DNA of 38,503 bases from Thermoproteota archaeon (lineage in GTDB: Archaea > Thermoproteota > Methanomethylicia > Culexarchaeales > B10-G16), in contig QMRB01000006.1 in NCBI GenBank assembly GCA_003649185.1, positions 1 through 38,503 of the forward strand, given 5' to 3'. The notes under the pieces are model-generated. The model had not been told where the DNA came from, searched no databases, and saw only the letters and a program-made list of their open reading frames with translations. Positions 873-37,995 of the stretch are shown piece by piece. A program made the position numbers and the translations under genes. Within the stretch, counting starts at the first letter, position 1. Every line of letters starts with the position of its first letter.

Positions 873-4696
<3,824 letters not shown>

Positions 4697-4707
4697 GAAT
4701 TTCACCT

Positions 4708-7700
4708 CTAAAATTTCTCCTCCAATATAAGTTTGGGAGCTATACAGAGACTCATAAGCTCTTGGAGAAGCAGTTTGAAAGCATAGGACATAACTACAGG
4801 GGATATCTTTGCCTTATCGCCGCAAATTCTGCATACATAGGTATCCCTGTTTCTATCATAATAAGCTATGAAACCGCAGTTTTCACATACATAAACCTCT
4901 GTTTTATCCGATTCCTCCAGCAATCTCTCCTTTAAAAGTAAAGCTGCTCCATGCCCTATTAGGCAATCCCTCTCCATCTCACCGAATCTTAATCCACCCT
5001 CTCTAGCCCTACCCTCAGTAGGTTGCCTAGTTAATATTTGAACTGGCCCTCTAGCCCTCGCATGTATCTTATCAGCCACCATATGATGAAGCTTCTGATA
5101 ATAGACTATACCGATGAAGATCTCGGCTTTAAGCATCTTACCTGTTCTTCCATCATACATGACCTCGCAGCCATTAGATTTGAAACCCAACTTTTTAAGC
5201 GCCTCTCTTAAACTCTCTTCTGATTCACCGCTAAATGGAGTTCCATCTATGAATCTTCCCTCTAATGCTCCAACCTTACCGGCAATGCTCTCTATTAATT
5301 GTCCAACAGTCATTCTTGAAGGTATTGCATGTGGATTTATTATGAGATCCGGCACTATTCCATCCTCAGTGAAAGGCATATCCTCCTGTGGAACGAGAAG
5401 ACCTATAACTCCTTTCTGTCCATGCCTTGAAGCAAACTTGTCACCAAGCTCCGGAACTCTATTATCTCTAACTCTAACCTTTACCAATTTGTCACCTTCT
5501 GAAGTTTTAGTGAATAATACTCGGTCAACAACTCCTTTCTCTCCATGCCTCATGCTGAGGGAAGTTTCACGTCTAGTTCTCTCTCCAACCCTGAGACCTG
5601 TAGATTCTTCGAGAAATCTTGGAGGACTTGTTCTCCCTACAAGTACAACTCCACCTGAAACTTCAACTTCCGGTTCAATTATTCCATCCTCACCGAGAAA
5701 TCTATATGCTTCAGCAGTCCTATATCCTCTAACGCCTGGTTCAGGAATCTCTATAGAATCCATTTCTCCTCCCGGATACTTTTTCTCCTCGATCTCGTAG
5801 CATCTGAAAAATGTTGAATGTCCAAGCCCCCTCTCCACAGAAGATTTATTCATTATTAGGGCATCCTCAATGTTATATCCGGCATATGAGAGAATTGCAA
5901 CCACGAAATTTTGGCCTGCTGGACGATCATCATACCTTATTACTTCAGTTGCCTTAGTTTTAACTATGGGCTTCTGCGGATAGTGGAGGAGATGAGCTCT
6001 AGAATCCATTCGTAACGGATAATTGATAGCGTAGAGTCCTAATGCCTGTTTAGCCATGGCAGCTTCATATGAATTTCTAGGCGACTGATTATGCTCTGCG
6101 AAGGGTATTATCGAAGCACAGATTCCGAGTATTGTGGCAGGGGCAATCTCGAGATGAGTATGTTCGGAAGTTACATCTTCAGGATTTAAGGCTATATAGG
6201 CATTCTCCTCCTCTTCAGCATCAAGATATTCTATGAGACCCTTGTCGATGAGATCGCTCCACGACCACTCGCCTCGTCTAAGCTTTTCAATATGATCCTT
6301 CTTCAGCTTTATCTCTCCATTCTCAACGATTATTAATAGGCGTCTAACACGTCCCCTATCGCAGTTCACGTAAACCTCATCTATATGTTTATCCTTGTAA
6401 TGGGCTACATTGACTTCACTGCTTATATCCCCCTCTCTTCTCATACGTCTAATCTCAGAGCAGAAGGCTTCAGGATCTGGATGTATACCTAATAGTCGAC
6501 CGTTGAGGAAGACTTTAGCACCTTTAACCATGGATTTTCTTGCACGTTCTATCGAGATTACTCCTAAACGATGTAATGTTCTCTCTACAATGCTCTCATC
6601 GAAACCGACTGAAATTATAGCCATTAATGCAAGGTTTTTAACGAGACCGCAGTTCGGCCCTTCAGGAGTCTCATTTGGACAGAGTCTACCCCATTGAGTG
6701 GAATGGAGATCTCTTGCTTCAAAGTGTGGTTGACTTCTACTTAGAGGGGAAACTACCCTTCTCAGATGGCTTAAAGTGGACATATAGTTGGTTCGGTCGA
6801 GAAGTTGACTGACTCCAGCTTTGCCTCCAACCCAATTTCCCGTGGCTAGGGCATGTCTCAGCCGCTCAGTTATAACATCGGCTCTAACGAGATTTGTGAC
6901 GTTAACTCTTCTTCCCCTACTTCTAGCCCGCTCCAACTGATATTTAACATCTCTACAGAAACTTCTGAAGGCAACTCTGAAGAGACTCATTAAAAGGTCG
7001 CCTGCAAGTTTAAGCCTTTTATTAGCGTAGTGATCTTTATCGTCAGGCCCTCTCCTATTTAAAACCAGTTCGAGAAGTTTTTCGGCCATCTGGCCGAGAA
7101 AATATGCTTTTCTCCTTCTATCCTTTGGAAGATTTCCAAGATGTGGGAGAAAATATTTGTCAAGAATTTGTTCTGCTCTTTGAATTCTATATTCACGTGT
7201 CTGGCCTATGGCAACTCTATTCCCAATATAATCTAATGCATCTGAAACTCTAGCCACTGCTGAAGCCTGTTCCAATGTGGGTATGAGAAGTTGCTGGATT
7301 TCAGGATCATCTGAAACTGCCTCAACAATCTCCTTATCGGTCCTTAGACCTAGAGCTCTCATCAAGATTCCGAGAGGTATCTTACCTGGAACGGATGGAA
7401 ATGAAACGTGGAGAGTTCCATCCTTAACTCTATCCATGGTGACTGGAACTCTATATCCTGAGGCCACTGAGAATACCTTTGCTGTATGAGTAGCAGATGA
7501 ACCGGGACTTCCATAATCTACAAGAATCCTGTTTATTGCAAGATCTTCTTGGGCTACAAGAACCCTTTCAGAGCCATTTATTATAAAGTAGCCTCCAGGA
7601 TCATCGGGATCTTCACCGTGAGCGAGAAGTTCATCTCTGTCGAGCCCGTGAAGCATACATTTAACCGATTTAACCATGATGGGCATTCTACCTATAAAAA

Positions 7701-8034
7701 CTCTGACAGGTTCACCTTCAATTCCATCCTCCACTGGAATCATAGTTAGATACATAGATGAAGCATAAGTGAGATTTCTCAGACGAGCTTCCATGGGATA
7801 AACCTTCTCTTCGGAGCCGTCAGCCTCCCTTACAGTTGGATCCTTAATTTCTATAACGCCAAATTTGACGCTTAATCCAGGTATATCCGTTTCAATTCCA
7901 CCTTGCTCATCGACAATCCTCTGTAAACCGCGGGTTATGAACTCGTTGAAGGAGTCTAAATGTTGTCTAACTAAACCCTTCTCCTTAAAGAATGCATCTA
8001 CAAGCAGCCATCTATCTTCATGAGATAAGGACAA
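4708..8034 (-). CDS. rpoB: DNA-directed RNA polymerase subunit B (Rpo2, undivided)
   Basis: Second-largest polymerase subunit in one piece, 1108 aa, unlike the split B'/B'' of many methanogens and halophiles. Visible landmarks are [19 protein letters not shown], the [18 protein letters not shown] segment, [33 protein letters not shown] (active-site lysines) and the C-terminal zinc ribbon CENCGF...CRICGD. The start is TTG, with GGAGG about 9 nt upstream. It follows rpoH by only 17 nt and precedes rpoA1, the universal archaeal order. No interruption or unusual insertion was noticed. Confidence 0.98.
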
Positions 8035-8885: not shown

Positions 8886-10337
8886 CTACCGTTTCACTTT
8901 TGACTTCAAACTTAACTTTGACGGTTTCTTAGCTTTCACCATGGTCCTCCAATACTTAATGTTTCTTATACATCCAGGATCAGGCGCCAAAATGTATCCA
9001 TAATATGAAAATGCTCTTGCTCTACATCCGCCGCATATGTATCTATATGGACATATACCGCAATTGGCTTGGAGAATATCTTTACTTCTAAATGCTTTTA
9101 ATATGGGAGTATTCTCCCAAATCTCGCTGAAACTTTTCTCCCTAATGTTTCCGAGGGGAAGTTGAGGGATGAAAACGCAGGGGGTTATGGTTCCATCTGG
9201 TTGAAGAGCACAATAAATTCTTCCAGCACCGCATCCACCTATAAAATTAGCTAGATCGCTAAGTCCACTTATAGAGGGGCCGGCATAGAAGTGGGTTGGA
9301 CTCATCATGGTTCCTCCAGATTTTTCGAGAACAACTCTAGCATATTGTGGAGCTGTGGATAAAATTTCTATGTCTCCAACCTTCAACTCTTCATAAAGCA
9401 TGTTTAGAAAAGCTTCCCTCTCGGTAGGTGTAAGATCCATTTCAACTATTTTTTCACCTCGCCCTACTGGGATAAAGTTGAAGAAAATCACTCTTGAAAC
9501 ACCCAGTCTCCTCGCCAACCCTATAATTTTCTTGGCTTCAAGATAATTGTATTTTGTAACTGTAGTCGCTATTCCTGTAAATAGTCCTCTCTTCACACAG
9601 TTTCTTATGCCTCTTACAGCGCTTCTCCAAGATCCCTTAACACCTCTAAACATATCATGTTTTTCAGGATCCGCAGAATCTATGCTTATCTCCACATAGT
9701 TTACACCTTTAGTTTTAAGCTTTTCAGCTACTCTTTCGGTGATCAATGTTCCATTGGTTGCTACAGCCACATAGAAATTTTTTCTTACAGCCCTTTCAAC
9801 TACAGGCCAGAAATCTTGATGTATAAGTGGTTCTCCTCCGGAAAAAGCTATAGCGGCAACTCCCGCCTCCTCTAATTGATCTAGTACTTTAAATTTTTCC
9901 TCTAATGAAAGCTCGTTTGGAAGGGGTTTTTCAGCTCTTTGATAGCAATGTTTACATCTCAAATTACATGCATTTGTGAAATTCCACACTACTAAAAATG
10001 GAGCGTCAAGCATTTGCGGGATGGTGATTCCATATTTTCCTATACTTCTCAAAATAGTTTCTATCCCTCTTCTTACACCTCGCTCCTTAAAGAACTTTCT
10101 AGTTGATTCAGATTTAACATCCAATATGTGAGCACTAAAATCGATTATGAAGGATAATAGGAGAGAGGAGAGATATGGGGTGAATTTTCTTGGAGCCTCT
10201 TCACCGGAATATATTGAGAGAGCATGATAGAGGAGGGATTTATCTTCAACTTTCTTGTTTGACAAGTATTTTACAGCGGCTCTAACTATTGGATTGCCGA
10301 ATACTCTTTTTATAAATTTGACTGTTTCGAGAACCAT
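8886..10337 (-). CDS. Radical SAM/SPASM domain protein with N-terminal helical extension
   Basis: Protein of about 483 aa. The radical SAM signature CNLRCKHC places the [4Fe-4S] ligands at C124, C128 and C131 (counted from ATG 10337). It is followed by FSGGEPL (SAM binding) and an EISIDS strand. The C-terminal third has a cysteine-rich SPASM region (CGAGRIYC, CGICPYRYICGGCRA, and a last Cys near the end) that should hold auxiliary Fe-S clusters. Members modify peptides, cofactors or haem precursors; the substrate cannot be read here. About 115 residues, mostly helical, precede the core and are not part of the standard fold. ATG 10337 is chosen because GGTGA lies 5 nt upstream; the earlier TTG lies upstream of that site. 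It is monocistronic, with no small peptide gene seen beside it. Confidence 0.85.
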   Translation of the reverse strand: MVLETVKFIKRVFGNPIVRAAVKYLSNKKVEDKSLLYHALSIYSGEEAPRKFTPYLSSLLLSFIIDFSAHILDVKSESTRKFFKERGVRRGIETILRSIGKYGITIPQMLDAPFLVVWNFTNACNLRCKHCYQRAEKPLPNELSLEEKFKVLDQLEEAGVAAIAFSGGEPLIHQDFWPVVERAVRKNFYVAVATNGTLITERVAEKLKTKGVNYVEISIDSADPEKHDMFRGVKGSWRSAVRGIRNCVKRGLFTGIATTVTKYNYLEAKKIIGLARRLGVSRVIFFNFIPVGRGEKIVEMDLTPTEREAFLNMLYEELKVGDIEILSTAPQYARVVLEKSGGTMMSPTHFYAGPSISGLSDLANFIGGCGAGRIYCALQPDGTITPCVFIPQLPLGNIREKSFSEIWENTPILKAFRSKDILQANCGICPYRYICGGCRARAFSYYGYILAPDPGCIRNIKYWRTMVKAKKPSKLSLKSKVKR

Positions 10338-10465
10338 GTAGGTCACCTTCAATCAATGCTAAAAACGAAGTTTAATATAAAGTTTTATCTATAATATTAT
10401 AGGAAAAATTAAATCATCAATGTTATTAAAAATGAGGTTAAATTTTCAAGTTAAAAAAATAAAAT

Positions 10466-19628: not shown

Positions 19629-19687
19629 TTTAATATAGCTTTGAAAGTAATGGAATAATTGGTAGAAAAATGTGAAAGGTGCAATTT

Positions 19688-20959
19688 ATGAGTGAAAAGT
19701 ATAAGAGAAAATATACTTTCGGAGAGGATTATGGGACGAGCTTCTATAAGTTTGGACCGATAACTTTAGGGGAGAAGCCGAGGCTCATTGAGAATAGAGG
19801 ATACTTTCCAGACAAATCTTCAGTGATTTACAAGTTGATGGGAATAACTAGGGAGGTAATAGTGGGAGAAAAATTGCCTTCATATTTAGAGTCAAAGGAG
19901 GATCTTGCATCTAGACTGATATATCCGATGAGAAATGGAGTGGTAGATAAGGATGATGAGAAGGCTTGGAGAGTCATAGAGGAGATCACTGGATACGGAT
20001 TGAAAGCGTTCAGGTCTGTTGGATCGGATTTTAAGGGATACTTCGTTACGGCGGCATTATCTTCAATAGCTCCGAGATACATGTATGAGAAGATTATCGA
20101 AATACATAGAAAAGTCGATTGGGAAACTGGACTTATAAGAGCGGTGACTATAATTCCGCAACCATTAGCTGTGGCGATAGCACATAAAGCTCCAACATGC
20201 ATTGTAATTGAAAGTGGACATGGAAATACACAGATATGTCCAATATCGAGATATCCAATTAGAAGTGCCATAATAGCGCTTAACAGGGGGGGAAGCGATG
20301 CGGATATAATTACAAGCCAAATACTATATGATGCTGGATATGGAGACATAGCCAAGGAAGAAGCAATAGTTAGAAGAATTAAGGAGGCTATAGGCCTCAT
20401 ACCTAAAAGGTTGAATGAGGCAATAAGGGAGGCAAAGAGAAACTATGAGAAATACCATGTAAAGTATAAAATTGCAGGAACAAGAATAGAGGTGGACTTG
20501 GGAAAAGATTCTTGGACAAGATTTTTAATAGGAGAATACATATTCAATCCGAAAGATGAAATGTTTGAAAGCTATTTTAAAAGGGGGATGCGGAGACCTA
20601 GAGACATGAAGATAGGGGAGATAACATTTAGAGGAATGATGGATCTTGGGGAAGCAATAATAGAATCTGTTGAAAAATGCCCTATAGAATTACAGCCATA
20701 TCTTTATAATAGGATAATACTTTCCGGGGGAAATCTTCAATGGAAAGCTCCTCCACAATTTAAAGATGTAGCTGTAGATTCAGCTACAAAGATAAAGATA
20801 CTGTTACAAGAGAAAGGTGTTGAAGGCATTATAGTTGAAACTGCACCTGAACCAAAATACAGCGTGTGGAGAGGTTGCATAGTATATGGATATGCTCTTC
20901 CAAAAGACTATAAGTGGACTTGGGAGAACATGGAAGGTTGGATAGATCTCCATGCATGA
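19688..20959 (+). CDS. Actin family protein (crenactin-like)
   Basis: A 423-aa actin homologue, similar in length to crenactin (about 430) and longer than eukaryotic actin (375). The phosphate-1 loop is visible as DYGTS (residues 14-18). LIYPMRNGVVDKDDEKAW aligns with actin's RYPIEHGIVTNWDDMEKIW. PQPLAVAIA carries the equivalent of Gln137, ESGHGNTQICPI is phosphate-2, and ILSGG is the adenosine motif. It should bind ATP and polymerise into filaments. ATG 19688 follows AAAGGTG by six bases; the GTG at 19679 is part of that site. Its stop overlaps the next gene by 8 nt. Compared with eukaryotic actin, Asp154, Asp157 and His161 read Glu, His and Gln. Confidence in the actin fold is high; its cellular role is inferred. 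Confidence 0.93.
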   Translation: MSEKYKRKYTFGEDYGTSFYKFGPITLGEKPRLIENRGYFPDKSSVIYKLMGITREVIVGEKLPSYLESKEDLASRLIYPMRNGVVDKDDEKAWRVIEEITGYGLKAFRSVGSDFKGYFVTAALSSIAPRYMYEKIIEIHRKVDWETGLIRAVTIIPQPLAVAIAHKAPTCIVIESGHGNTQICPISRYPIRSAIIALNRGGSDADIITSQILYDAGYGDIAKEEAIVRRIKEAIGLIPKRLNEAIREAKRNYEKYHVKYKIAGTRIEVDLGKDSWTRFLIGEYIFNPKDEMFESYFKRGMRRPRDMKIGEITFRGMMDLGEAIIESVEKCPIELQPYLYNRIILSGGNLQWKAPPQFKDVAVDSATKIKILLQEKGVEGIIVETAPEPKYSVWRGCIVYGYALPKDYKWTWENMEGWIDLHA

Positions 20960-23922: not shown

Positions 23923-24846
23923 TTGAATCTGAAAGAAGCAGTCGAGAAAAGTATGAAGGTAAACATCGGCAGAATCATAGATACATTATGTATGGAGAGT
24001 AATATCAATTTTCTAGCTGAGGGATGCGGATATGAAGCTATAAGAAACAGTCCATTCATATTTAAAGCATTAACAGGGAAAAATATCGGATACTATTCTA
24101 TCATGGAGTATGCTAGGTATATTGCACCATATTGTGATGAAAATGAGAAGATAATAGTTATTACTAGGGGAGGAAGAAAATTAGATCCAAAAGTTAAAAT
24201 GATCATGGAAATATGCAGTTTAATGGGCATAGAATATCAATTAATAGTCACGGGAAGAGTAGGAGAAGTAACGGATGTTAGAGGCAAATTTGAACCTATT
24301 GAAATTGGATTAGAAAATGAACTATCTAACCCTATACACTTTTTAGCGGCAAACACCATTACTGTGAGAATAGCAGCAGAGATGGGAAGAAGAGAGGGAT
24401 GGACGAAGAGAGCAGGAAATATTATAATGGACATAGAAGAGATTATCAATGAACCTTTAAAAGTGGGAGAAGAATTTGAAGAATTACTTAAAAAGATATT
24501 TGAAGGAGATGTGGTTATTATAGCAGATCCTATAATTTATGGGCTTGCAAGGGAAATATGCTGGGAACTGAACATAAACATAAGAACTCGCTTACAAACC
24601 TACATGATAGGTGAAGATATACGTATGTTTAAAGGAAAAAAGACGGGAGAATACATAATCTTCACAACTGAAATTCAAGAAGATTTAGCAAGACAAATTG
24701 GAAACTATTATAAATTGAGAGGGGAAAAGGTGATGATGATAACTGTAAAAGGAGAACCTTTAACAGCCACACTAAAATTAGGGATACCGATATTTACAGA
24801 GATACTCAGAAAGTTAAAAGTAGAAAGAAAAGAGAAGAAATGGTAG
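23923..24846 (+). CDS. SIS-like (sugar isomerase fold) protein, unassigned
   Basis: A 307-aa protein. The first half looks like a SIS domain: LAEGCGYEAIRNSPFIFKAL at the first strand-helix, then YYSIMEYARYIAP, then KIIVITRGGRKLDPKVKMIM where GlmS and related isomerases have ISRSGET. A second half (VVIIADPIIYGLAREICWEL, then KTGEYIIFTTEIQEDLARQI) repeats this weakly, as in double-SIS proteins. The usual catalytic glutamine amidotransferase domain is absent. It sits 2 nt after glmM and 7 nt before uppS, so a role in amino-sugar phosphate metabolism is plausible but inferred. The start is TTG. Confidence 0.55.
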   Translation: MNLKEAVEKSMKVNIGRIIDTLCMESNINFLAEGCGYEAIRNSPFIFKALTGKNIGYYSIMEYARYIAPYCDENEKIIVITRGGRKLDPKVKMIMEICSLMGIEYQLIVTGRVGEVTDVRGKFEPIEIGLENELSNPIHFLAANTITVRIAAEMGRREGWTKRAGNIIMDIEEIINEPLKVGEEFEELLKKIFEGDVVIIADPIIYGLAREICWELNINIRTRLQTYMIGEDIRMFKGKKTGEYIIFTTEIQEDLARQIGNYYKLRGEKVMMITVKGEPLTATLKLGIPIFTEILRKLKVERKEKKW

Positions 24847-32973: not shown

Positions 32974-34092
32974 ATGGAAGATAAAAATGAAGGAAAGAAG
33001 ATATTAATTCTCTGTGTGGATCGAGATAACGATATAGGGCGAATAACAGGAGAGAATACGCCTATAATAGGTAAGGAACGAAACTTAAAAGTTGCTGTGA
33101 AATTTGCCGTAAACTCTCCTGAAGATTCCGATGTAAACGCCATTTTTGCTGCAATAGGAGTTTACAATAAATTAAGGGCTGAGGGAATCAACTGTGAAGT
33201 GGCAACTATAGCAGGTTCACCTGAAGGTGGATTGAAGGCTGATATGAAGATCTTGGAGGAACTGGAAGAAGTTATCAATCATTTTTCAGCTTCTGGAGTA
33301 ATACTTGTAAGTGATGGAGCAGCAGATGAAGCGGTGATTCCAATAATACAATCGAAACTGCCAATAATATCGGTTAAGAGAATATTAATTCAACAGGAGA
33401 GAAGCGTAGAGGAAACATACATAGTCATTGCAAGATATCTTAGGAAGATCGTTGAGGAACCTCAATATGCAAGGATCTTTCTAGGAATACCTGGAGCAAT
33501 ATTTCTTCTATTAGCTATTTTAAGTATTAGTGGTTATGCTCAATATACGATGATAGGGGCGCTGATAATAATAGGTTCAGCATTTACAATTAGAGGCTTC
33601 TCAATAGATAAAGTTATTATGCAATGGTGGAAATCATCACCAATAATATTCTTTTCAGGGCTTATGACTTCCATTACCATAATAGTCTCATTATATGAAG
33701 GGGCTAGAAGAGTGCTCTCAGAGTTAAGCATAGAACCTGCTATAATCACAAATATACCTAAAATGATAGGACTCTTTCTCATTCAATCCATGGATATATT
33801 CTTAATAGGAATAGGAATTCTCATAGTGGGCAGAATGATAGATAAATACTTGGGGGAAAAAAGGAAAATTTGGCATGATTTTGTGGGTTTGGTCTTTCTA
33901 ATAACGGTGAGACCCCTACTCCAAAATATAGCTTTACTTTTCACGGTAGCGGAATTCAACCAGCAGATCCTAATATATTCTATAATAACCACCGCAGGAA
34001 TAAATTCCAGTCTAATAGTAATCTTCACATTGATAGATAAAATAAGAGAGAGGAGAGCTCGGAGGGAAGAGAAAAGTGAAGAAAGAAGTTAA
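32974..34092 (+). CDS. DUF373 family membrane protein
   Basis: A 372-aa protein. The cytoplasmic domain (about residues 8-160) opens KILILCVDRDNDIGR and contains EDSDVNAIFAAIGVYNKL, AGSPEGGLKADMKI and VSDGAADEAVIPIIQ, all typical of DUF373. The rest holds about six hydrophobic helices ending in a basic tail, [15 protein letters not shown]. The family is archaeal and uncharacterised. The acidic conserved residues could bind metal, but no activity is known. The next gene starts inside its last 17 nt. Confidence 0.88.
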   Translation: MEDKNEGKKILILCVDRDNDIGRITGENTPIIGKERNLKVAVKFAVNSPEDSDVNAIFAAIGVYNKLRAEGINCEVATIAGSPEGGLKADMKILEELEEVINHFSASGVILVSDGAADEAVIPIIQSKLPIISVKRILIQQERSVEETYIVIARYLRKIVEEPQYARIFLGIPGAIFLLLAILSISGYAQYTMIGALIIIGSAFTIRGFSIDKVIMQWWKSSPIIFFSGLMTSITIIVSLYEGARRVLSELSIEPAIITNIPKMIGLFLIQSMDIFLIGIGILIVGRMIDKYLGEKRKIWHDFVGLVFLITVRPLLQNIALLFTVAEFNQQILIYSIITTAGINSSLIVIFTLIDKIRERRARREEKSEERS

Positions 34093-34813
34093 GGTAGGTG
34101 TTATAGGCGGATCTGGACTGGAGAAACTTGTAGAGGGGAGGGAGCTAAATGTTATTACACCATATGGAAATGTGAGGTTAATTCTCGGAAAGCTAGGAGA
34201 ATGCCCCATAGCTTTCATAGCGAGACATGGTTTAAAACATGAAATACCACCTCACAGAGTAAATTATAGGGGAAATATTTGGGCTTTAAAAAAGGTAGGA
34301 GTGAAATATATTATTGCTTCCAATGCTGTAGGCGGTATAAGGGAAGGTTTAAAGCCTGGGGATCTCATTGTTCCACATGACTTCATAGATTTTACGAAGA
34401 AACGACCTTTAACTTTCTATGAAGGGCCTAAAGTGAAACATGTAGATATGACGTTGCCTTACTGTCCAAAATTAAGAAAAATCTTGATAGAAAGTGCAGA
34501 AAAACATTTTAAAAGAGTTTGGAGGGAGGGAATTTATGTTTGTACGGAGGGACCTAGATTTGAAACTCCGGCAGAGATTAAGATGTTCAGACTGTTAGGT
34601 GCGGATGTCGTGGGTATGACAACGGTGCCGGAAACCATTCTAGCGAAAGAAATGAGTATCTGTTATGCCACTCTATGTGTAATTACAAATTATGCTGCTG
34701 GAATGCAGGATAAGATATCTGCAGAGGAAGTATCGGAAATTATGGAAAAAAGGATTCCCATAATAGCGGAGATCTTTAAGGATTGTGCGGCGAGACTGCT
34801 AATTGAAGAATAA
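34076..34813 (+). CDS. MTA/purine nucleoside phosphorylase family, 6-oxopurine type
   Basis: A 245-aa member of the PNP/MTAP family. [11 protein letters not shown] is the phosphate-binding loop, [20 protein letters not shown] and SNAVGGI are ribose and phosphate contacts, and [12 protein letters not shown] and MTTVPE complete the active site. The base-recognition segment reads ITNYAAG (Asn near residue 204). Methylthioadenosine phosphorylases carry TDYD there, and 6-oxopurine enzymes such as PNP and methylthioinosine phosphorylase have TNxAAG. The substrate is therefore more likely inosine/guanosine or 5'-methylthioinosine than MTA. The start is GTG with GGAGGG upstream, inside the DUF373 gene. 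Confidence 0.88.
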
Positions 34814-34825
34814 AGCTTCTAGAAA

Positions 34826-35914
34826 TTATTGGAGAATTCGAGGTATAGAATTTAGGACTTTGCATCCGCTACTTGTCACTAAAACCATCTCCTCTATTCT
34901 TACACCGCCGAAACCAGGAATATATATTCCTGGTTCAACAGTCACCACATTACCTTTCTCCAATATATCCCCGCTTTGAGAAGAAAGGCTGGGTGCTTCA
35001 TGGACGGAGAGTCCTACACCATGCCCTAAACCATGGTTAAAATATTTTCCATATCCATAGTGCTCAATAATTTTCCTAGCAGCCATATCAATGTTTGAGG
35101 CAGGGATACCTTCACATATTTCATCTACAGCTATACTTATAGCTTCTACAATACAATCAAATATTTCTTTAAATCTGCCTTGAATCCCGTTTCCCACCAC
35201 TCCGCTTCTAGTAATGTCAGAGCAATATCCACAATATTTTGCGCCGAGATCAATTATAACTGTTTCATTTTTATGTAAGGGTTTACTTGTGGGGGTGCCA
35301 TGAGGATATGCTGATCTAGTACCTGAGGCAACTAGGGTTCCGAAGGAAAATGCTTCTGCGCCGGCCTTTCTCATCGCATATTCCGCTTCACCTGCAAGTT
35401 CAATTTCGGAGACACCTTCATTAAGATTTTGAAATGCTGCTTCAACCCCTTTCTCAGCAATTCTCAAGGATTTTTGTATAAGATTTATTTCCTCCTCGTC
35501 CTTCACCATTCTTAACTTTCTAACTAGATTTGAACAGTCAACCAGCTCTTTGGAGATTTTCCCTTTAAAGTTTAAATATGAATTATAGGGTATGGTGGAG
35601 AGTTCTAACGCGATTTTCCCTTTAATTTCAATTCTTCTAATACACTGTAATATTAAATTTGCAAGTTCACCTCTCCGTTTCAGGGAGACTATTTCACCAA
35701 GCTTAAAGATGCTCTTAGCCTCCTCATATTCGAGTTCGGGAACTATGAGAATAGGTGCTGAAGAGGACGATACTATTAGTGCGCGGCCCCTAGGAAAACC
35801 TGTCAGATAATATATATTGGTGGCTTGAAGTATTATTGAAAGGTCTATGTTCTCTTCATCCATAAGCCCCTCTAATTTAGAAAACCTTTTTTTGAAAGAA
35901 AGGCTAGTAAGCAT
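34826..35914 (-). CDS. pepQ: M24 family Xaa-Pro dipeptidase/aminopeptidase
   Basis: A 362-aa metallopeptidase with a creatinase-like N-terminal domain (residues 1-125) and a pita-bread catalytic domain. Metal ligands are visible as [20 protein letters not shown] (two Asp), the His of [10 protein letters not shown], and the Glu residues of [14 protein letters not shown] and [10 protein letters not shown]. It removes or cleaves residues next to proline. GGTG lies 8 nt upstream of the ATG. It is divergent, 30 nt apart, from the PP-loop gene. Confidence 0.94.
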
Positions 35915-35944: not shown

Positions 35945-36970
35945 TTGATTAGTATGGAAGACATTTTAAATATTATTGTTAAAGTTAGAAAAGAACTGGG
36001 ATATTATTACAAGAATATGCCCAAGATAATTTCAGTTAGACATGATGAACAGGAGAATAGATTATATATTTTATGTGGTGATCGTCCCGATAAGGCTGTG
36101 TTGATGGGGCCTGGTGGAAGGGTGTTATTTGAGCTGACGAGAAGGCTAAGTGTAGACTTTATAGTTGTTCGAACATACACTGATCTTTTAGTTAGAGAGG
36201 AGAGGATGGTTCAAGCTATTCGAAAAGCTAAAAGAATTGCTGAAAAATGTAAGTCTAAGAAAATTTCAAAATATATTTGGAATAGGCTTATACCGTTGGC
36301 GGAGGAGGAGCTAGCCGACTTATTGAGGAGGAAAATTCGGAAAAGAAATGTGATCGATGTTAAAACCATCGTGGCATATTCAGGTGGAATTGACAGTTCA
36401 GCCACAATCGTATATGCGAAGAACTTGGGAGGCGAGGTTATCCCTGTAACTGTTGATCCAGGACCTTTTATAATACCTAGAAGACTCAAAGAAAAGATAA
36501 TTTCCTTTACTAATAGTAACGATTTGAAGGCATTTTTCATTAAGCCATCAAATGATTTCAAAGAGATAATCGAGAACTCTATGGATGGGAGATACGCTCC
36601 CTGTAAGAGGTGCCATAACATTATAGTTGAGACTACGTATAGAGCGGCTGGAAAATTTCAAAGCGAAATAGTGTTTTTCGGCGATCTTTTACCCACAGGA
36701 AGCCACTCCATAAAAATTGAGAATGAATTGTTGCATGTCAATCTTCCAGCATATCTAGCTTTGTCTAAGAGTGACACTATAATAATCTCCAAGTTAAATG
36801 GTTATAATGTGGGAAAACTTAAATATGGATGTCCACTCTTCAGAGCTGTTGTAAGGAGGAATAAGCATCTCAAATTAGCAGCATATCAGAGAGTATTGAG
36901 AGAGACAAGGGCAGGGGTGCTTGAACCAAACCAAGCGTTAAAATTGATAAGAAGCATTGAGAAGCTTTAA
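35945..36970 (+). CDS. PP-loop ATPase with N-terminal KH-like domain
   Basis: A 341-aa protein. The PP-loop ATP-pyrophosphatase signature is AYSGGIDSSATI (about residues 142-153), with DPGPFIIPRR next. Cysteines CKRC (about 219-222) and one in KYGCPLF (about 298) match those used for sulfur transfer or Fe-S binding in tRNA thiolases such as TtcA/TtuA. Residues 28-80 look like a KH fold with VLMGPGGRVLFEL as the GxxG loop. Together they suggest an RNA-modifying (thiolating) enzyme; this is inference. The TTG start has GTGAT 5 nt upstream; ATG 35954 is the alternative. It ends in a TTAA shared with hypE. Confidence 0.8.
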   Translation: MISMEDILNIIVKVRKELGYYYKNMPKIISVRHDEQENRLYILCGDRPDKAVLMGPGGRVLFELTRRLSVDFIVVRTYTDLLVREERMVQAIRKAKRIAEKCKSKKISKYIWNRLIPLAEEELADLLRRKIRKRNVIDVKTIVAYSGGIDSSATIVYAKNLGGEVIPVTVDPGPFIIPRRLKEKIISFTNSNDLKAFFIKPSNDFKEIIENSMDGRYAPCKRCHNIIVETTYRAAGKFQSEIVFFGDLLPTGSHSIKIENELLHVNLPAYLALSKSDTIIISKLNGYNVGKLKYGCPLFRAVVRRNKHLKLAAYQRVLRETRAGVLEPNQALKLIRSIEKL

Positions 36971-37995
36971 CAGATTCTGGGCAAAGGCATACCTACAGGA
37001 GATTCCAATATTCTCTTTCCACCAATAGAAGTTTCTAAGACTACATATCCGGGATTTTCGGATCGAACTTCACCAATTATAGCTGAAGTTCTAGCGATTT
37101 CAAAGTTGCGAATAGCCTTTAGAATTTCATCTGCACGTTCACAATCAACTCCTAGGATAGCTCTACCTTCACAGGCCAAGTAGAGTGGATCTAAACCGAG
37201 CATTTCACATGCAGCTTTAACCTCAGGTTTTATTGGAATATTTTCTTCATAGATCCAGATGCTTACATTTGATTTTCTAGCCATCTCGTTTAGAGCTGCA
37301 GCGAGACCTCCTCTGGTAGGATCTTTCGCTGCTCGGAGACCACCAATCTTCATAGAAGTTTCGATAAGAGGCCATATGGGAGCAACGTCAGAAGCTATTG
37401 GGCTTTCAAATGACAATCCTTCTCTTACTGAGATTAATGAAAGTTCATGTTCACCTATGGTTCCAGTAACTATTATTTTATCGCCGGGCTTTAACCCTGA
37501 ATCTGTAATTATCGAATTCTTCTTGGCGATACCGATACCGGAGGTGGAAATTATTATCTTATCCATTTTCCCCTTAGGCATAACTTTGAAATCTCCACCC
37601 ACAATGGCAACATTATTCATAGAGGTAACCTCAACTAGAGACTCAATTATTTCGTTGAGTTTAGATATTGGAAATCCCTCTTCAACAATTATGGAATCCA
37701 TGAGCGCTAGAGGTTTGGCACCCATAACCGCAAGATCGTTGATAGTGCCACATGCTGCCAACACTCCTATGTTTCCTCCAGGAAAGAATAACGGTTCAAC
37801 CGTATAGCTGTCTGATGTGAAGACTAGTTCTAAATCTCCAAGTGGAATAGAGGCCCCATCATCCATATCCTTTAATCCTATGCCCCCAAATACATTGCCC
37901 AACTTTACTTTTTTAACTATGAGAAAGTCTATTAGTTCATTCATGGCTTGACCGCCACTTCCATGGATAAGTTCAACCTTATTCTTGATGAACAT
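36967..37995 (-). CDS. hypE: Hydrogenase maturation protein HypE
   Basis: A 342-aa AIR-synthase-like enzyme. It opens VELIHGSGGQAMNELI and has the ATP-binding segment FTSDSYTVEPLFFPGGNIG. It also has CGTINDLAVMGAKP, DPTRGGLAAALNEMA and the C-terminal PRIC, whose last cysteine carries the carbamoyl group that HypE dehydrates to the cyanide ligand of [NiFe] hydrogenases. All key features are present, so it should be active. No other hyp or hydrogenase gene lies within the window. It is convergent with the PP-loop gene. Confidence 0.96.
   Translation of the reverse strand: MFIKNKVELIHGSGGQAMNELIDFLIVKKVKLGNVFGGIGLKDMDDGASIPLGDLELVFTSDSYTVEPLFFPGGNIGVLAACGTINDLAVMGAKPLALMDSIIVEEGFPISKLNEIIESLVEVTSMNNVAIVGGDFKVMPKGKMDKIIISTSGIGIAKKNSIITDSGLKPGDKIIVTGTIGEHELSLISVREGLSFESPIASDVAPIWPLIETSMKIGGLRAAKDPTRGGLAAALNEMARKSNVSIWIYEENIPIKPEVKAACEMLGLDPLYLACEGRAILGVDCERADEILKAIRNFEIARTSAIIGEVRSENPGYVVLETSIGGKRILESPVGMPLPRIC

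Follow-up and report, generated by a model that had tools for sequence, protein, structure and literature searches.

A small archaeal protein family joining a predicted KH domain to a three-cysteine PP-loop core, with a possible role in RNA sulfur transfer

Analyzing a 38,503-nucleotide stretch of a Thermoproteota archaeon (contig QMRB01000006.1, assembly GCA_003649185.1; hereafter the window), we found a gene that joins a predicted N-terminal KH domain to a PP-loop core with three invariant cysteines, and that together with its relatives constitutes a small new family, separate from NcsA/TtuA, ThiI, LarE and WbuX. For the function of these KH-PP proteins we favor an Fe-S-dependent, ATP-activating sulfurtransferase that would act on an RNA and use the KH domain as its substrate-binding module, a reading to which we give even chances. 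No description of a fusion between a KH domain and a PP-loop core was found in the literature searched, outside of which lay subscription papers and the arCOG tables; in the accessible text of PMC4390880 and PMC4048286 the term "KH domain" occurs only in the reference list, and it is absent from that of PMC2948915. The gene and its parts are as follows.

35945 to 36970, plus strand: the KH-PP-loop gene, 341 amino acids plus stop, with a TTG start
35945 to 36175, plus strand: type II KH domain, residues 1-77, from the predicted fold and structural matches to NusA KH domains
36107 to 36118, plus strand: GxxG loop of the KH domain, GPGG, residues 55-58 (9 of the 10 members have GxGG and L011 has GPGA)
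36176 to 36316, plus strand: two long helices joining the KH domain to the catalytic core, residues 78-124
36380 to 36397, plus strand: PP-loop SGGIDS, residues 146-151, the ATP pyrophosphatase motif
36602 to 36613, plus strand: C220-x-x-C223, the first two of the three invariant cysteines
36680 to 36700, plus strand: GDLLPTG family motif, residues 246-252
36827 to 36832, plus strand: G295-C296, with the third invariant cysteine
36890 to 36928, plus strand: C-terminal family motif, residues R316 to P328

Judged from its conservation, this open reading frame is a real gene, because full-length relatives share 32-50% identity with the window protein and because a close pair (G085 and G194) has a dN of 0.012 against a dS of 0.095. 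An in-frame ATG lies at 35954, three codons downstream of the TTG start, and the gene is present in a single copy in the host assembly, which is fragmented (118 contigs totaling 1.38 Mb, with 76% completeness). The nearest named relative, at 50% identity, comes from Candidatus Culexmicrobium profundum (L007), and the full-length predicted model of the window protein has a pLDDT of 90.1 and a pTM of 0.87.

When 200 genomes of the phylum were searched with the single window protein, six of them, the window's own among these, gave a match at E ≤ 1e-5. A profile built from six sequences and run on 398 genomes of the phylum recovered members at E ≤ 1e-95 in nine of them (G000, G085, G194, G005, G007, G240, G368, G372 and G035), with the G035 copy cut by a contig end; the best non-member followed at 1.9e-22 and the others at 9e-13 and weaker, and at the 1e-5 limit the same profile matched 300 of the 398 genomes, catching other PP-loop enzymes as well. 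Scanning genome_contigs with the single window protein gave no relative, and scanning it with one peptide pattern gave six loci, two of which (L008 and L009) represent additional genomes and four of which are contigs of G240, G005, G007 and G035; this pattern misfits the G368 and G372 sequences and so undercounts the family in genome_contigs. The family thus counted comprises 10 full-length members and one cut by a contig end, spread over 11 genomes that all belong to one archaeal phylum, and the alignment used for conservation (A3) holds the 10 full-length proteins. Within the window's own order, two of seven genomes carry the gene. A further, broken copy in G091 (L082, about 1600-2100, contig 23), whose KH and CxxC parts lie in different frames, could reflect gene decay or else a fault in the assembly.

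Evaluating the catalytic core across these proteins, we found SGGxDS in all 10 full-length members (11 of 11 with the truncated L012), many core residues invariant in 10 of 10, and C220, C223 and C296 equally invariant with no other cysteine so conserved. The first-pass annotation had read an SGGIDSS PP-loop and a CxxC with a distal cysteine from the window protein alone and had named non-conserved cysteines as the result that would count against it; loop and cysteines are present, and all three cysteines hold across the 10 full-length members. It had also called the protein uncharacterized, and this stands, as the window protein reaches the cut-off of no family in Pfam or NCBIfam. From the loop serine to the first cysteine there are 73-75 residues and from the second to the third 72-77 (10 of 10 members), compared with 70 and 77 in one LarE-like protein, 76-78 and 80 in two archaeal ThiI proteins, and 84-88 and 89-90 in three NcsA/TtuA proteins, so that the spacings of the family lie near those of LarE and ThiI and are shorter than those of NcsA/TtuA. 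Against PDB sequences, the top matches of the family profile were 8cnz (titled mmLarE-[4Fe-4S]; 2.1e-9), TtuA (1.2e-7) and NcsA (3.7e-6). With the whole model, Foldseek placed TtuA first (3.2e-6), and the VIA-align matches included MnmA-tRNA 2deu (Z 12.8, 4.0 A, 169 residues aligned), ThiI-RNA 4kr6 (Z 12.2, 3.3 A, 165 aligned) and TtuA 5ztb (Z 11.9, 4.3 A, 202 aligned), their Z-scores tied within 1; among the matches listed, those of either program were PP-loop-type enzymes. The SGGxDS loop and these matches together assign the family to the PP-loop ATP pyrophosphatase superfamily, whose nucleotide-binding core is alpha/beta/alpha.

Turning to the N-terminus, residues 1-77 of the full model fold as alpha-beta-beta-alpha-alpha-beta, and residues 1-100 predicted alone (pLDDT 94.3) give a helix at 4-18, strands at 28-34 and 39-44, helices at 49-54 and 56-67, and a strand at 72-77, with GxGG between the two middle helices as in type II KH topology. 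The KH-like N-terminus and GPGG loop proposed in the first-pass annotation are thus borne out by structure prediction, the very check on which it had let the KH fold stand or fall. Searching with the KH region alone, Foldseek returned NusA KH domains first, though weakly (best 3.2e-3, none below 0.001), and VIA-align matched it best to archaeal NusA 2cxc (Z 9.0, with 63 residues aligned at 1.8 A), FttA and KH-CPSF scoring near Z 8. In sequence comparison, the KH profile also placed archaeal NusA 2cxc first (6e-4 for the whole chain, 0.21 for the best single stretch), and each Pfam KH model reached just one of the 10 KH regions (NusA-like KH_5 at 0.028, KH_1 at 0.15), so it is chiefly the predicted fold that carries the KH assignment. 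The family shares this type II fold and GxGG loop with NusA and FttA (KH-CPSF), and differs from them in having only one KH domain, joined to a PP-loop enzyme, and no basic residue in the middle of the loop. A basic residue in the GxxG loop is typical of RNA-binding KH domains, and archaeal NusA loops in the profile alignment read GRGG and GKGG, whereas the two middle positions are never basic in the 10 members (GPGG, GMGG, GYGG, GHGG or GPGA); because of this difference from NusA, RNA binding by the predicted KH domain is not assured. All 10 members are net positively charged over their first 100 residues, and the linker residues D80, R87 and E122 are invariant in all of them.

Among known systems, the NcsA/TtuA/TtcA proteins (TIGR00269) share with the family the SGGxDS PP-loop, the CxxC, the distal cysteine and a similar core fold, with a proline after the distal cysteine in most (GCP in the KH-PP family, DCP or ECP in the others), and profile comparison with the NcsA/TtuA proteins of the member genomes gave 2.5e-13 over 109 columns. 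They differ in that the KH-PP family has no N- and C-terminal zinc fingers, carrying an N-terminal KH domain instead, and has its own GDLLPTG and C-terminal LEPxxAL motifs. Three cysteines and no others are conserved in the family, and in two members (L009 and L045) these three are the only cysteines; even with E allowed up to 1, the C-terminal domain of TIGR00269 did not match the window protein, and TIGR00269 is not among the 20 families matched by any of the 10 members at 0.001. Archaeal ThiI, the s4U8 synthase, likewise sets an RNA-binding-type module before the PP-loop core and has a CxxC and distal cysteine at similar spacing (profile comparison 5.9e-9 over 148 columns, core only), but where ThiI has NFLD-THUMP the family has a KH domain, and Pfam matched no THUMP domain in the window protein or the family. 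Because the NcsA/TtuA and ThiI alignments end before the third cysteine, its equivalence to theirs rests on spacing and the surrounding motif.

By profile comparison, the closest single relative of the family is a WbuX-like protein, L048 (hhalign 3.9e-19 over 197 columns), in an alignment that covers the CxxC, the third cysteine, GxxLPxG and the C-terminal motif. This protein, encoded at 1115-1996 on the minus strand of contig 95 of genome G005, has an N-terminal tetracysteine, a CxxC-C set after its PP-loop and the sequence GHELPFGH; among 151 genomes of the phylum it has a strong match in its own genome only, two other matches being a KH-PP member and a WbuX-like protein. A WbuX-like protein of G077 (L071), in contrast, combines that tetracysteine with a PP-loop that no CxxC follows. 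As far as two sequences can show, CxxC-C may be the mark of a sulfur-transfer branch close to NASAT, and L048 perhaps represents a second sulfur-transfer family without a name.

To place the family beside the thiolases of its hosts, we surveyed the nine member genomes recovered by the profile. TIGR00269 (NcsA/TtuA) was matched in all nine and over its cut-off in eight, and PF02568 (ThiI) was over its cut-off in all nine, although the G035 match is weak (4.0e-10) and probably represents another PP-loop protein, leaving a clear ThiI in eight of nine. With replacement of QueC also considered, PF06508 (QueC) was matched in nine of nine, weakly (best 2.0e-9), with several of these matches falling on ThiI or KH-PP genes themselves. 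Since member genomes also carry NcsA/TtuA-type and ThiI proteins, the KH-PP enzyme probably contributes a further reaction instead of taking over an existing one. It is unlikely to stand in for a missing thiolase, with G035 as a possible exception.

The genes around the KH-PP gene in the window are these.

32974 to 34092, plus strand: DUF373 protein, a neighbor in the same synteny block
34076 to 34813, plus strand: S-methyl-5'-thioadenosine (MTA) phosphorylase, a neighbor in the same synteny block
34826 to 35914, minus strand: M24 (Xaa-Pro type) peptidase, the divergent neighbor
36967 to 37995, minus strand: HypE, the convergent neighbor, with a 4-base overlap at the end of the KH-PP gene

Homologs of DUF373, MTA phosphorylase and M24 lie near the KH-PP gene in 5 of 11 loci (the window, L007, L008, L009 and L011), with the M24 homolog adjoining the gene in L007, L008 and L009 and one gene away in L011. 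Elsewhere, in G368 and G372 (2 of 11 loci), a threonyl-tRNA synthetase (ThrRS) gene stands directly upstream on the same strand, the KH-PP gene starting 79 and 82 bases, respectively, past its last sense codon, and we take this adjacency as a weak hint at tRNA. In a sister family, f2 (L079, L080 and L081; genomes G062, G133 and G246), DUF373, MTA phosphorylase and M24 are followed by S8e and the KH-PP gene is missing in 3 of 3 regions; HypE follows M24 in G062 and G133, and none was seen between M24 and S8e in the G246 region. Other genes at these loci are what we take to be a CinA-like gene, a GTPase and a coiled-coil protein. An incomplete assembly was rejected as the cause of this absence, as the flanking block is intact without the gene in all three regions. 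The simplest reading is an old gene passed on by vertical descent and lost in places, because the adjacency recurs in distant lineages; three of the seven inner branches of the family tree are well supported, and since the deep branches are weak, horizontal transfer of the gene is also possible. As for a mobile gene, no relative was found in viral_contigs, where 43 stretches matched a pattern and none was a relative, nor in plasmids.

Further genes in the window include an RNA polymerase Rpb1 split into two genes beside Rpb2 (873-8034, minus strand), an arrangement ordinary for archaea, a radical SAM protein with a SPASM domain (8886-10352, minus strand), an actin-family protein with a Pfam Actin match of 9.1e-16 over its second half (19679-20959, plus strand), and a 307-aa open reading frame with no Pfam match at 1e-4 (23923-24846, plus strand).

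In the sulfurtransferase reading, an RNA, most likely a tRNA, would be bound by the KH domain at the N-terminus together with the pair of linker helices; the SGGIDS PP-loop would bind ATP, and a carbonyl oxygen of the target base would be adenylated with release of PPi; C220, C223 and C296 would ligate a [4Fe-4S] cluster whose one free iron carries a sulfide; and this sulfide would displace AMP to yield a thiolated base. Each of these elements (adenylation, cluster, sulfur transfer and RNA substrate) is drawn by analogy from relatives, and RNA thiolation or a related modification, which the first-pass annotation had suggested, is supported at the level of computation by the CxxC-C set common to ThiI, LarE and NcsA/TtuA together with the predicted KH fold. 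The accessible texts on these relatives describe, for NcsA, a required [4Fe-4S] cluster held by three cysteines (Cys142, Cys145 and Cys233) whose free iron site is proposed to bind hydrogenosulfide (PMC10067955); for T. maritima LarE, a required three-cysteine [4Fe-4S] cluster (PMC9283937); and for M. maripaludis ThiI, a CxxC and an essential [3Fe-4S] cluster (PMC8584467). The RNA part of the proposal is less secure than the sulfur part, because the KH loop is non-basic and the best core match is an amidotransferase-like protein. Against an RNA sulfurtransferase, moreover, stand a closest relative that is WbuX-like and a best NCBIfam family that is TIGR03573, main neighbors (M24 peptidase, MTA phosphorylase, DUF373 and HypE) that are uninformative on RNA, and a gene as sparse as 9 of 398 genomes. 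N-acetyl sugar amidotransferase-type enzymes do not move sulfur.

Alternatively, the protein could be an amidotransferase or ligase of the WbuX (NASAT) or TilS kind directed at RNA, in which an adenylated carbonyl would receive ammonia or an amine and the cysteines would bind zinc or be structural; we judge this improbable. It would fit L048 as the best match over the whole core and C-terminal motif, TIGR03573 as the best NCBIfam match to the window protein (1.1e-5) and a match to 10 of 10 members (best 6.7e-13), and NASAT 8wex as the longest of the VIA-align matches listed (222 residues, Z 11.8, 4.4 A). The window protein, however, scores 25.1 bits against a TIGR03573 cut-off of 203.2, and the NASAT tetracysteine, as defined in the accessible part of PMC10607449, has no counterpart in the family, where no cysteine before the PP-loop is conserved in the 10 members and a KH domain stands instead. 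The family and L048 also share a CxxC-C set that the tetracysteine protein of G077 does not have, and no glutaminase gene was recognized beside the KH-PP gene in the 11 loci compared.

An ATP-dependent sulfurtransferase of the LarE kind, thiolating a small molecule or cofactor and using its KH fold as a scaffold rather than for RNA, would keep the sulfur chemistry and dispense with the RNA, and would suit a GxxG loop that has no basic residue. The core and CxxC-C spacing resemble [4Fe-4S] LarE, the spacing matching LarE roughly as well as it does ThiI, 8cnz heads the PDB sequence matches, and TIGR00268 matches 10 of 10 members (best 7.5e-9). We nonetheless think it unlikely, given that the window protein reaches 22.1 bits against a TIGR00268 cut-off of 150, that KH domains without a nucleic acid partner are uncommon, and that no cofactor-biosynthesis cluster was recognized in the 11 loci compared. 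To our knowledge, LarE has no KH domain. Its substrate, unlike that proposed here, is a nicotinate-derived nucleotide, according to the accessible text of PMC9283937. The sparse distribution, the clean absence at the syntenic locus in sister genomes and the one broken copy would all suit a protein that is no longer an enzyme, namely an RNA-binding protein whose PP-loop core serves as a nucleotide or Fe-S sensor, but decay of an active site would not leave SGGxDS, all three cysteines and numerous core positions invariant across the 10 members, which makes this very unlikely.

Returning to an RNA sulfurtransferase, we raise a tentative and more specific possibility, that the family is a KH-guided Fe-S thiolase of scattered TACK archaea making a thionucleoside or RNA thiolation that no known enzyme makes, with L048 representing another branch of that GxxLPxG/CxxC-C group, one with a zinc ribbon. 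It would then be the first sulfurtransferase we know of to recognize RNA through a KH domain. Should an RNA sulfurtransferase be the right reading, KH would join THUMP and zinc fingers as a third means of delivering RNA to a PP-loop core for sulfur transfer, and the family would point to archaeal RNA thiolation beyond the reactions of the NcsA/TtuA and ThiI families, which the member genomes also have.
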